Of a DNA stretch of 64,000 nt, positions 51,263-58,881 are shown one piece after another. The notes beneath the pieces are model-generated. The model did no database searches and was not told the origin of the DNA. It saw only the letters and a list, made by a program, of their open reading frames with translations. The position numbers and the translations under genes are program-made. Each line of letters opens with the position of its first letter. Position 1 is the stretch's first letter. Origin of the DNA: an uncultured Saprospiraceae bacterium (GTDB taxonomy: Bacteria; Bacteroidota; Bacteroidia; Chitinophagales; Saprospiraceae); contig CALGNN010000027.1 of NCBI GenBank assembly GCA_937961455.1, forward strand, positions 1 through 64,000, read 5' to 3'.

Positions 51263-51601
51263 TTAGGCAAGTTTGTCATTATCACGATGTCGTTGTGCAT
51301 CACGAATGGCCTTTTTATCCAGGTTTTTTATAAAAGCTTTTTGAAGATCAACACCTGTTTGGTTGGCTAAACACACCAATACAAACAATACATCCGCCAT
51401 TTCAGACGCTAAAGATTCTTTGATATTTTCTGGTTGCTTATCCTTCTTGAAAGACTGGTCTCCGTAGATGCGAGCCATGAGACTGGAGAGCTCTCCTACT
51501 TCTTCAGAGAGAATAACTGTATTTGTTAATTCAGAAAAATAACGAATACCATATTTATCAATCCACGCGTCGACAGCTTTTTGTGCTTCAAGTAAAGTCA
51601 T
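51263..51601 (-). CDS. MazG-like nucleotide pyrophosphohydrolase
   Basis: All-alpha NTP pyrophosphatase of 112 residues. E-E-V-G-E-L-S-S-L-M-A-R and E-M-A-D-V-L-F-V-L-V-C-L-A supply the E-x2-E and E-x2-D magnesium ligands. It hydrolyses nucleoside triphosphates to monophosphates, often cleaning up non-canonical forms. Its start overlaps the dtd stop by 4 bases, so the two are coupled; a dtd/MazG-like pairing occurs in other Bacteroidota. Confidence 0.9.
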   Translation of the reverse strand: MTLLEAQKAVDAWIDKYGIRYFSELTNTVILSEEVGELSSLMARIYGDQSFKKDKQPENIKESLASEMADVLFVLVCLANQTGVDLQKAFIKNLDKKAIRDAQRHRDNDKLA

Positions 51602-52050
51602 TCCTTGTTTTTGCTATCTAATATAATACTTACTGGTCCGTCATTGATTAATTGTAATTTCATGTCTGCACCAAATTTACCTCCAAATACTTCCAATCCT
51701 GAGATCTCTTTCAGTGTTTCCATAAATTGCTGATATAGTGGTTCCGCCTTTTCTGGCCTAGCTGCCTTGATATAAGAAGGACGGTTTCCTTTCTTTGTGC
51801 TTGCGTAAAGTGTAAACTGACTAATTACTAGGAATGAAGCTTTTACTTGTTGAGCGTTTAAGTTCATTTGCCCATTTTCATCTCCAAAGATTCTCAAATT
51901 TGTAAGTTTTCTACATAGCCAATCAATATCTTCTTGAGCATCTTCTTCTTCAATCCCAAGTAATATCACCTGTCCATGAGAAATCTCAGAAATAACTACA
52001 CCGTCTACCTTGACAGAAGCTGCTTGAGATCTTTGAGTAATTACTCTCAT
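51598..52050 (-). CDS. dtd: D-aminoacyl-tRNA deacylase
   Basis: Removes D-amino acids and glycine wrongly attached to tRNA. The diagnostic motifs are S-Q-F-T-L-Y-A (about residue 77) and the cross-subunit Gly-cisPro loop in N-D-G-P-V-S (about 138). Length (150) is standard. The start overlaps the SRAP gene stop as TAATG, and the end overlaps the MazG-like gene, giving a coupled run of three small genes. Confidence 0.96.
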   Translation of the reverse strand: MRVITQRSQAASVKVDGVVISEISHGQVILLGIEEEDAQEDIDWLCRKLTNLRIFGDENGQMNLNAQQVKASFLVISQFTLYASTKKGNRPSYIKAARPEKAEPLYQQFMETLKEISGLEVFGGKFGADMKLQLINDGPVSIILDSKNKE

Positions 52051-52730
52051 TAATCAAAAAGTGTAAGCGCCTCTTTTACCGGTTCATGTAATTCAGCATT
52101 ATTGTAATCATCTTCACTTAACTGATCACTTACACGATAATAACTAAAACCATCTTCTGAAGGCCTTTGTAAAATTTCGTGTGTTTCTTTTACTGAGATT
52201 CCACTCAACCATCGCGTGATATCTTTAGTATCTCTAAATACATATGGAACCTTTTGTTCAAAATGTCTAATTGAATTATTCGGTTTAGAAGTGATGACTG
52301 AAAATCTATATTCTGTCTCAGTTCCTATCTTATGAGTTGAGTATACACCAGCAACTGTCATGAGTTGTCTGGATGAATTATAAATTCTATTAGGATATTC
52401 TTGCCCTTTGCATTTCATCCATAAATAAAATGAGTCCATAAGAATTACACATCTTCTGCTTCTAATAGGTATTCTATAAGAAGTACTAGAAAATATACCT
52501 TCAATATTGGCGTAATTTAAATGGCGTACGCTTTGAGTTCTTTCATCTTTTACGATAAGACCCCAAGTTGCAGGTGTGATTACTTTAGGAGATTCGGAGC
52601 AAATAATATATGTTTGTTTCCCTGGATTAATATTATAATTATTAATCCAATTTGATTTTTGGGATACAGACAAAGTTGCTTTTGAGCTAAAGTGTTCTTT
52701 AGCCAAATTAAACGAAAGGTTGAATTTCAT
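52050..52730 (-). CDS. SRAP (YedK/HMCES)-fold protein lacking catalytic residues
   Basis: The fold is recognisable from N-I-N-P-G-K near residue 38, T-W-G-L-I, R-R-C-V-I-L-M-D-S-F-Y-L-W, V-A-G-V-Y-S and W-L-S-G. YedK/HMCES crosslinks to abasic sites in single-stranded DNA through Cys2, helped by a Glu in (D/G)-x-Y-E-W and a His. Here the residue after the initiator Met is Lys, the Glu position is Leu (F-Y-L-W), and the His (R-H-F-E-Q-K-V-P) remains. The frame opens 24 bases upstream (52754), which does not restore Cys2. It is thus likely a non-crosslinking relative. It sits next to the candidate origin. Confidence 0.8.
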   Translation of the reverse strand: MKFNLSFNLAKEHFSSKATLSVSQKSNWINNYNINPGKQTYIICSESPKVITPATWGLIVKDERTQSVRHLNYANIEGIFSSTSYRIPIRSRRCVILMDSFYLWMKCKGQEYPNRIYNSSRQLMTVAGVYSTHKIGTETEYRFSVITSKPNNSIRHFEQKVPYVFRDTKDITRWLSGISVKETHEILQRPSEDGFSYYRVSDQLSEDDYNNAELHEPVKEALTLFD

Positions 52731-52952
52731 TCTATTATCAATTATTATAAACATTACACTTTTTCGTAAAGTGTAAAAGACTGTAATTCAAATATATAAC
52801 AAATTTATTTATTAACAACTTATTAAGAAGAATGTTGGTTTGATTAATTTAAATGTGCATATCATATTACTTTTATATACACATATAATTAATTTTAATA
52901 TTAACTAATTTAATACATATCTATTTGAAAAATAATAACTAATAAATTGACT

Positions 52953-52961
52953 TTATCCACA
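52953..52961 (+). promoter_or_regulatory. DnaA box TTATCCACA
   Basis: An exact match to the strong DnaA-box consensus, in the centre of the AT-rich gap. One exact 9-mer is expected by chance in a large genome, so its weight comes from position and the neighbouring one-mismatch boxes. Confidence 0.6.
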
Positions 52962-53226
52962 AATAAAATTGCACTTATTATTAACTAACACAATTACTAA
53001 CACATGTTAATAAATTGTATAAGTAATTGATTCATATTTATTTATTTGCTTGATATGGTGTTAGTAGTTAATATTTAATTTTTAATAATATAAATTAAAA
53101 TAATATTGAATGGAAGAATTCCACAAACTAACACAACTAATAATAATAATATTTTATTTAGAATATTAAAGTTTATCATTATTAAGGGGGGCTAATTGTT
53201 AACAAAAATTTTATCCTCTGTTTGAC

Positions 53227-53234
53227 TACTTTTG
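53227..53234 (+). promoter_or_regulatory. -7 element of ctaA, implying a nearly leaderless transcript
   Basis: TACTTTTG matches TAnnTTTG and ends 7 bases before the ATG at 53242, so transcription would begin at or just before the start codon. Confidence 0.5.
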
Positions 53235-53241
53235 TTTTGCA

Positions 53242-54294
53242 ATGAGTGATTCGATAAAGAAATATTTTAAAGTTTGTATCGCAGTTAATTTGATTCTCGT
53301 GTTCATCGTGATCGCAGCTGGATCGATTGTAAGAGCTACAGGATCTGGGATGGGTTGTCCAGATTGGCCAACTTGTTTTGGAAAATTAATCCCTCCAACA
53401 AATATTTCTCAAGTTAGCTGGCATCCTAACAATTCTTTTAAGGAAGGCGAAATGATTATAAGGGATGAGCTTTTGTTAGTAGCGAATAAAGATTTTACAT
53501 CTGATGGTGATTTTAAAAAAGCTAATTGGCACAAATATGAAAAACATGATTATGCCATTTTTAATCCGCTTCATACTTGGGTAGAATTTATTAATCGTTT
53601 AGCAACGGTCGTTTTGGGCTTTCCTATAGTTCTCATGTTCCTTCTGTCTCTTTATTATATTAAAATAAATCCTTTGAATACCCTCTTTGCTTTTGGATCA
53701 CTATTTATGGTAGGTTTTCAAGCTTGGCTTGGTAAAATAGTAGTTGATAGAAATTTACAAGGAACAACGATTACTTATCATATGCTAGGTGTTTTTATTT
53801 TAATTGGATTTCTATTGATACTGTGGAATAGAAATAAAAAAGAGCTTAAAGAGCAGATAGAATCATTAGTTAATCAAAAAAATTTAATGGTATCAATAGC
53901 TACTGTTTTATTGAGTTTAATAATGATTATTTTAGGTACCCAAGTAAGAGAAGAGGTTGATGCAATTGCAAAACTTACAACAGATAGAACGACCTGGGTT
54001 AATCAACTTTCGATCATATTTATATTCCATCGAAGTTTAATTTGGCTCGTTTTAGGATTGAATGCAATTTTGATGTACCAACTTAGAAGTATACTTAAGT
54101 ATCGAATACATTTAGTATCCATTGGAATTTTAATTTTATGTGAAAGTATTATTGGTGTTATTCTTTCCTACTTTAATATGCCGGCAGCAGCTCAGCCCAT
54201 ACATTTGTTGTTTGCGGCTTTATTGATTAGTATTCAATTTGACTTATTTATTAAACTAAAGCGTTCATCAAAACTCACATTGGGTAAAGCTTAG
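53242..54294 (+). CDS. ctaA: Heme A synthase (COX15/CtaA family)
   Basis: Converts heme O to heme A for cytochrome c oxidase. There are eight membrane segments in two four-helix halves with four heme-ligand-type His: H-T-W-V-E-F-I-N-R (H111), T-Y-H-M-L-G (H180), F-H-R-S-L-I-W (H263) and P-I-H-L-L-F-A (H321). The signature R-A-T-G-S-G-M-G-C-P-D-W-P-T-C-F-G follows helix 1. A hydrophilic loop of about 60 residues between helices 1 and 2 is typical of this family. No other cox or cta genes are in the window. It is the first gene right of the candidate origin. Confidence 0.94.
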   Translation: MSDSIKKYFKVCIAVNLILVFIVIAAGSIVRATGSGMGCPDWPTCFGKLIPPTNISQVSWHPNNSFKEGEMIIRDELLLVANKDFTSDGDFKKANWHKYEKHDYAIFNPLHTWVEFINRLATVVLGFPIVLMFLLSLYYIKINPLNTLFAFGSLFMVGFQAWLGKIVVDRNLQGTTITYHMLGVFILIGFLLILWNRNKKELKEQIESLVNQKNLMVSIATVLLSLIMIILGTQVREEVDAIAKLTTDRTTWVNQLSIIFIFHRSLIWLVLGLNAILMYQLRSILKYRIHLVSIGILILCESIIGVILSYFNMPAAAQPIHLLFAALLISIQFDLFIKLKRSSKLTLGKA

Positions 54295-57569: not shown

Positions 57570-57585
57570 GGTTCCACGTGGAACA
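57570..57585. promoter_or_regulatory. parS-like site 1
   Basis: GGTTCCACGTGGAACA matches the bacterial parS consensus TGTTNCACGTGNAACA at every position but the first. The core GTTCCACGTGGAAC (57571-57584) is a perfect palindrome. It lies directly after the thrC stop codon. ParB binding is inferred. Confidence 0.75.
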
Positions 57586-58881
57586 TTAGAGGTCCATCAA
57601 AAGGGACTTAAAAGACACATAGTCCTTATTTGAGCTATAAGCTGATTTAGTCTGATCTAGAAAGTCAGCAAGCCTTGTTGGAAGCGTTATAGGCTCATTA
57701 ATAGCCTCTTCTACTACATCTTGAAACTTTCCAGGATGTGCGGTTTCTAAAAAAACATAATGTCGCTTTTCTTTCTGGAAAGCCTCCTTGCAAGCTAAAT
57801 AGCCAATTGCACCATGTGGGTCAGCGATATAAGCATATTTTTCCTTGATTTCAGCTATTGCAGCAAGGGTTTCTTGGTCTGTACTGTGAAATCCTCTCAC
57901 ATCTTGTTTTACATCGTTCCACGTGGAACCATATAAAGACATGATTCGTGTAAAGTTTGAAGGATTTCCAACATCCATAGCATTGGATATGGTTTGCATT
58001 GAGTCTTTTGGAACAAATTCTCCTGTCTTTAAGTAGTCAGGAACAATCTTATTCTTATTTGTTGCTGCAATAAATGAATGAATGGGCAAACCCATTTTTT
58101 TAGCGATAAGACCAGCACATAAATTACCAAAATTGCCTGAAGGAACCGCAAAACAAAGATCTCCTTGATCTTGTAACTGTTTATAAGCATCATGATAATA
58201 AAAGCTTTGAGGTATTAATCGTGCAATGTTTATAGAGTTTGCAGAGCTGAATTGGTATTTGTTATGCAAATCTTTGTCTAGAAAAGCTGTTTTAACCAAA
58301 TTTTGACAATCATCGAATACACCATCTATCTCTACAGCTCTTATATTTTTCCCCCATGTAGTTAATTGTTTTTCCTGGAGATCACTGACTTTACCCTTTG
58401 GATAAAGAATAATGACTTCGATTCCTTCTGTTTCATAAAAGCCAGCTGCAACCGCTCCTCCAGTATCTCCGCTAGTAGCGACGAGTATCGTGGTTTTTTG
58501 ATCTTCATTCCTAAGAAAATAAGCCATTAGTGCTGCCATAAACCGTGCACCGAAGTCTTTAAAGGCCATACTAGGGCCATGAAAAAGCTCAAGACAGGAC
58601 AGATGGTCATCTAATTGAACAATAGGGGAGGGAAAATCAAAAGCTTTTAATAAAATCGATTCTAGCTCTGGCATGGGAATATAATCTCCCATTAAAGCTT
58701 GACAAACGATAAAGGCATTTTCATTAAAACTTCTTTCTTGTATGCTTTCATAAAATGATTTAGGAAGCCTTGGTATCTTCACGGGCATGTATAAGCCTTT
58801 GTCTACCGGGAAAGCGTTAAGCACAGCCTCCTTTAAATCTACAATGTTGTTAGGGTTGTTGGTGCTGAATAATTTCATCAA
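57586..58881 (-). CDS. thrC: Threonine synthase
   Basis: PLP enzyme turning phosphohomoserine into threonine. The PLP Lys is in M-A-F-K-D-F-G-A-R (about residue 108). S-G-D-T-G-G-A-V and P-S-G-N-F-G-N bind the phosphate and cofactor. Length (431) is typical. Its start overlaps the thrB stop by 4 bases, last gene of thrA-thrB-thrC. Unusually, a parS-like palindrome is embedded in the coding sequence at 57915-57930 (encoding part of G-S-T-W-N), and another follows the stop. Confidence 0.96.
   Translation of the reverse strand: MMKLFSTNNPNNIVDLKEAVLNAFPVDKGLYMPVKIPRLPKSFYESIQERSFNENAFIVCQALMGDYIPMPELESILLKAFDFPSPIVQLDDHLSCLELFHGPSMAFKDFGARFMAALMAYFLRNEDQKTTILVATSGDTGGAVAAGFYETEGIEVIILYPKGKVSDLQEKQLTTWGKNIRAVEIDGVFDDCQNLVKTAFLDKDLHNKYQFSSANSINIARLIPQSFYYHDAYKQLQDQGDLCFAVPSGNFGNLCAGLIAKKMGLPIHSFIAATNKNKIVPDYLKTGEFVPKDSMQTISNAMDVGNPSNFTRIMSLYGSTWNDVKQDVRGFHSTDQETLAAIAEIKEKYAYIADPHGAIGYLACKEAFQKEKRHYVFLETAHPGKFQDVVEEAINEPITLPTRLADFLDQTKSAYSSNKDYVSFKSLLMDL
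57915..57930. promoter_or_regulatory. parS-like site 2, inside thrC
   Basis: CGTTCCACGTGGAACC carries the same perfect core palindrome GTTCCACGTGGAAC (57916-57929) as the first site, 345 bases away, with only the two outermost parS positions differing from consensus. It is kept inside a protein-coding region. Confidence 0.7.

Follow-up and report, generated by a model that had tools for sequence, protein, structure and literature searches.

The replication origin of Escherichia coli, oriC, is intergenic, carries an AT-rich unwinding region beside its DnaA boxes and is unlinked from dnaA, a separation also recorded in the published literature (PMC8287927). The basal unwinding system (BUS) of bacterial oriC was characterised in Bacillus subtilis and has been reported to be widespread (PMC8287927). 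According to its published rule, a DnaA box with at most two mismatches is joined by a spacer of at most 16 bp (peak 10-13 bp) to at least three 'DnaA-trio' trinucleotides, whose central base on the opposite strand is A; beside the box the commonest trio is GAT (PMC8287927). The step at which the second helicase is loaded has been called unclear (PMC10201434), and parS sites usually lie within the origin domain (PMC7022226). Within the phylum to which the locus described here belongs, oriC plasmids of Cytophaga hutchinsonii (Xu et al. 2012, cited in PMC5891637) point to an origin that supports plasmid replication; the likeness to our locus is drawn from the title of the cited paper. In the literature searched, no replication origin of a Saprospiraceae member was described.

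Here, we analyzed a 64,000-nucleotide stretch of DNA from an uncultured Saprospiraceae bacterium (contig CALGNN010000027.1; hereafter the window), in which a reading of the sequence alone had proposed an AT-rich spacer as a candidate chromosomal origin. Our results support that proposal: positions 52755-53241 very probably constitute the chromosomal replication origin (oriC), of the DnaA type. This placement draws on four largely independent lines, namely a core profile built with the window's genome held out, a conserved synteny with enrichment of DnaA boxes, a step in strand-corrected skew, and parS sites within 2-12 kb. The elements, their conservation, the switch in strand asymmetry and the parS positions reported below were all obtained by computation.

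Like E. coli oriC, the window's spacer is intergenic, has an AT-rich stretch by DnaA boxes and is unlinked from dnaA; it differs in its neighbouring genes, in a trio-type unwinding module and in the few strong boxes found in this genome. With the BUS (PMC8287927), the Saprospiraceae core shares tandem boxes, a short spacer, middle-A trinucleotides on the opposite strand and an AT-rich stretch, and the box 1 spacer of 11 bp in Saprospiraceae falls inside the reported 10-13 bp peak. By contrast with the BUS, the Saprospiraceae trios usually run from GAT/GAC into TAC/TAT instead of repeating GAT, the boxes are often of a divergent ACTAACA/ATTAACA type, and the locus lies away from dnaA and shows a mirrored box in some cases.

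Results

The host genome is a 4.62-Mb draft in 250 contigs, the window belonging to contig C27. The candidate spacer at 52755..53241 separates two divergent genes, an SRAP-domain gene on the minus strand (52050..52754; Pfam PF02586, 1.2e-31) and the heme A synthase gene ctaA/COX15 on the plus strand (53242..54294; PF02628, 8.1e-37). The gene dtd, encoding D-aminoacyl-tRNA deacylase, lies further left (51598..52050, minus strand; PF02580, 1.9e-54), and synteny identifies dtd and ctaA as the conserved left and right markers of the locus. The spacer, which is conserved in Saprospiraceae, measures 487 bp with 81.3% A+T, close to the 82% originally estimated, and sits where the 82-kb contig has its AT-richest 487 bp (maximum 82.8% at 52698). 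Its proposed lack of genes was borne out, three chance open reading frames of at least 20 amino acids being all that it holds. No Rfam family matched the spacer, and an RNA element at 52755-53241 was rejected accordingly. The change of gene orientation that had been taken as a further sign of an origin is real at the spacer, but it is only local, with genes again on the minus strand from 55.1 kb on. We also observed a 9-bp perfect inverted repeat, TTACACTTT/AAAGTGTAA, at 52754-52776, exactly at the SRAP start, which is possibly an operator.

The spacer contains one perfect DnaA box, TTATCCACA, at 52953-52961 on the plus strand, as the sequence-only reading had stated. The two one-mismatch boxes it had also listed do not exist within 52755-53241, where the other near-boxes differ at two positions. 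Across the genome, TTATCCACA occurs 60 times compared with 59 for a reversed control pattern; because the box is no more frequent than this control, one perfect copy is weak evidence, and the original claim was weak on its own evidence. The sequence TTATTATTA (complement 3'-AAT-AAT-AAT-5') at 52975-52983 lies 13 bp downstream of the perfect box, and this combination of box, 13-bp spacer and AAT-AAT-AAT fits the BUS rule, such combinations being likely at 81% AT. Repeated 9-mers, another feature listed in the sequence-only reading, showed a modest excess (29 distinct, compared with 17.0 +/- 4.9 in shuffles; P 0.012). The heptamer ACTAACA, which in relatives stands where the core has its boxes, was found in four copies in the spacer versus 0.16 expected, and in eight copies in the whole 64 kb. 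Two of the repeats, at 52984-52990 and 52996-53002 on the plus strand, are candidate divergent DnaA sites given this excess, and another lies on the opposite strand at 53059..53065. The box content of the spacer thus comprises one perfect DnaA box and four ACTAACA repeats, and the spacers of relatives carry clear clusters.

This content could also be read as that of an ordinary long divergent promoter region, in which AT-richness and a single box are incidental, or in which DnaA merely regulates transcription. Such a reading is encouraged by the position of the spacer between divergent genes, whose promoters it must both hold, and by the chance frequency of perfect boxes in the genome; in view of the comparisons that follow, we nonetheless consider it highly improbable.

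Relatives were retrieved by CtaA, and almost all were labelled Saprospiraceae or related names. A leftward dtd, an optional leftward SRAP gene, a long spacer and a rightward ctaA followed one another in 13 of the 21 family genomes examined around dtd, with an alpha/beta hydrolase and an M1 peptidase often downstream of ctaA in that gene order. Divergent dtd and/or SRAP genes were located upstream of ctaA in the majority of 80 named loci. Many relatives have an SRAP gene between dtd and the origin; where it is absent, dtd borders the spacer directly. The spacers upstream of ctaA in Saprospiraceae span 388-693 bp. In a comparison of 14 spacers, the window's own included, the 13 from relatives contained 2-9 DnaA boxes (at most one mismatch) as opposed to 0.09-0.32 in dinucleotide shuffles. 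Unsupervised counting in spacers from which the core had been excluded returned TTATCCACA as the top 9-mer, present at 29 of 68 loci compared with 0.4 expected.

Alignment with these relatives revealed a core of about 50 bp, laid out as tandem DnaA boxes, 3 bp, CTAATGATGATG-like 'DnaA-trio' triplets and an AT-rich stretch. In Saprospiraceae spacers this core is positioned near the ctaA end, and box 2 overlaps box 1 by one base. The window's core unit reads AATTCCACA-AACTAACACAA-CTAATAATAATAATA (53117-53151). Its degenerate tandem boxes, AATTCCACA at 53117-53125 (three mismatches) and AAACTAACA at 53125-53133, both on the plus strand, align with TTATCCACA-xATTAACA / xATCCACA of 69 relatives. 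The trio-like array CTA-ATA-ATA-ATA-ATA (other strand 3'-GAT-TAT-TAT-TAT-TAT-5'; 53137..53151, plus strand), identified by the profile described below and by a register test, begins 11 bp after box 1, within the BUS spacer limit of 16 bp, and six trios stand in register, GAT-TAT-TAT-TAT-TAT-AAA, where the BUS minimum is three with a middle A. The AT-rich stretch at 53152..53173, conserved in position among relatives, is the presumed start of unwinding. In layout, the conserved core matches the BUS. Two features of the window's spacer count against an origin: the spacer is poor in good boxes, and box 1, being degenerate with three mismatches, falls one mismatch beyond the strict published BUS limit of two.

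The core profile (R1, from alignment A4) comprised 50 positions and drew on 52 loci, all from genomes other than the window's. Its best match in the whole 4.62-Mb genome was 53120-53165, with an E value of 1.1e-5 compared with 0.010 for the next, and the two runner-up matches lay in or across reading frames. The core was present upstream of ctaA in 69 of the 80 named loci. At least three trios at exactly 11 bp were found in 60 of 69 relatives versus 2.8% of random positions, and a box with at most two mismatches, an 11-bp spacer and at least three trios in register occurred together in 43 of the 69 versus 0.07% of random positions.

The profile also recovered full-length cores in other Bacteroidia families (f18, f32, f34, f56 and f67); DnaA boxes frequently surround these cores. 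The neighbours of the core differ there, including nadA with a SurA-like gene (G161), an ABC transporter (G127) and an AMP-binding enzyme (G178). Since the flanking genes differ among families, the core has apparently been inherited while its neighbours changed; its occurrence beside unrelated genes also indicates that it is not a regulatory element of ctaA or SRAP, a point against the promoter reading. In the G161 genome, a single 5.08-Mb contig from another family of the order, the core of this locus (L281) is at 3,710,857, between the two genes named, with several DnaA boxes around it.

The raw cumulative GC skew of the contig reached its minimum at 73 kb, was dominated by gene orientation and was discarded. 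Because raw skew tracks gene orientation, we measured skew at four-fold degenerate third codon positions and included gene strand as a covariate. The strand-corrected skew was -0.130 left of the core and +0.098 right of it (t=5.0), and the best break interval extended from -10.1 to +0.4 kb from the core, so that no switch far from the locus, the outcome that would have spoken against an origin here, was seen locally. When seven co-oriented genomes were superposed, the skew passed at the core from negative values on its left to positive values on its right, the sign of the step being identical in 7/7 genomes; the Stouffer combination of 14.3 across the seven is merely indicative, as the sites are not independent. 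The cumulative GC minimum lay 281 bp from the core in G046, 180 bp in G048 and 3.1 kb in G045. In the break-point test, the step at the core was weak or the best break lay elsewhere in G043, G045 and G049, and the fitted break in G046 and G048 was 4-14 kb off the core despite the cumulative minimum at the core. The sampled skew of Neolewinella xylanilytica C1/C2 gave a signal too weak to read.

The parS evidence was found last and played no part in the choice of locus or in profile building. Only two exact GTTNCACGTGNAAC sites are present in the 4.62-Mb genome, 4.4 and 4.8 kb from the core: GGTTCCACGTGGAACA at 57570..57585, which is intergenic, and CGTTCCACGTGGAACC at 57915..57930, within the coding sequence of threonine synthase. 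Tiled contigs of seven genomes, 1.67 Mb in total with about 0.08 sites expected, contained 14 exact sites, all of them at +2.3 to +11.6 kb from the core in the direction of ctaA; the tiled contigs of G046 had no exact parS. As in the described parS/ParB origin domain (PMC7022226), exact GTTNCACGTGNAAC sites are clustered near oriC, but in the tiled Saprospiraceae contigs they are very tight, always on the ctaA side and 2-12 kb away. The confinement of parS, the strand-corrected skew step and the class-wide core would all be left unexplained by a promoter region.

We also weighed the possibility that replication really starts at another place, such as next to dnaA or at a different cluster of boxes, and that the spacer is a titration or accessory site. 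The draft state of the assembly leaves some room for this, as the 250 contigs allow skew to be read only locally and the completeness estimate implies that about 4% of the genome is absent. However, the single dnaA is on contig C46, apart from C27, and a dnaA-adjacent origin was rejected, as no DnaA boxes surround dnaA there. The sequence-only reading had anticipated that dnaA need not adjoin oriC, and this holds also in Saprospirales bacterium GYS_P2D, in which a single contig carries both dnaA and the core at a separation of 0.94 Mb. No stronger box cluster emerged: the only perfect-box pair within 400 bp, on C91, sits inside a reading frame and was rejected as a candidate, and TTATNCACA pairs clustered within 30 bp were absent genome-wide. 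Skew step and parS both indicate the spacer at 52755-53241, and we accord an origin elsewhere even less credence than a promoter region.

Beyond the AT-rich stretch of the oriC candidate, an inverted trio-like run, TTA-ATA-ATG-ATA (53174..53185, minus strand), was read from the sequence and has an inverted partner in relatives. It is followed, 11 bp away, by an inverted degenerate DnaA box, TTGTTAACA (53197..53205, minus strand; three mismatches), which occupies the mirrored-box position of relatives and is weak in the window. In about a quarter of 81 loci, a minus-strand box with at least 7/9 matches lies on the far side of the AT-rich stretch at a distance of 58-63 nt from the first trio, and such boxes are nearly absent from the rest of the stretch; of the far-side boxes with at most one mismatch, 11 were on the minus strand and none on the plus strand. 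The mirrored box was present in 3/3 f32 genomes, two of them with an 11-bp spacer, a distance that recurs in several loci overall. These counts overstate independence, as the loci are related to each other. We suggest, as a speculative and rather doubtful possibility, that the origin core is two-sided, with opposite-strand box and trio modules facing each other across one AT-rich stretch, such that DnaA could open the DNA and load helicase on each strand alike. If true, the mirrored module would offer a direct test of second-helicase loading.

Discussion

From this arrangement we infer how oriC might work, from DnaA binding and melting to the loading of helicase and the action of ParB. DnaA would bind the perfect box at 52953 together with weaker sites, namely those of ACTAACA type and the degenerate tandem boxes at 53117-53133, and would extend from the tandem boxes onto the trinucleotide array at 53137-53151. 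The extended DnaA would open the AT-rich stretch at 53152-53173, where helicase would be loaded and from which forks would depart both ways. ParB at the parS sites (57.6 and 57.9 kb) would then gather and segregate the new origins.

The core signal is recognisable in many related genomes although dnaA is elsewhere, and core profile and parS taken together locate the likely origin in fragmented drafts without dnaA adjacency or a closed chromosome. An origin location of this kind could be used for read-depth growth-rate estimates, for assembly rotation and for oriC plasmids in uncultured or intractable members.

Two minor observations concern the relatives. In the window, G017 and G019, the ctaA next to the origin belongs to the CPDWPxC type, and in most relatives the ctaA at that place belongs to the TRLTGSGLSITKWEIVTG type (alignment A2). 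The two CtaA types share about 20% identity, and the heme A synthase types were apparently swapped in place beside the origin. Because relatives can have a different CtaA type at the same position, a search with a single CtaA protein is misleading. In addition, locus L065 (CALIIP010000049.1), from a metagenome-assembled genome labelled Flavobacteriaceae, has a core nearly identical to that of the Saprospiraceae locus L066 and is probably mislabelled.
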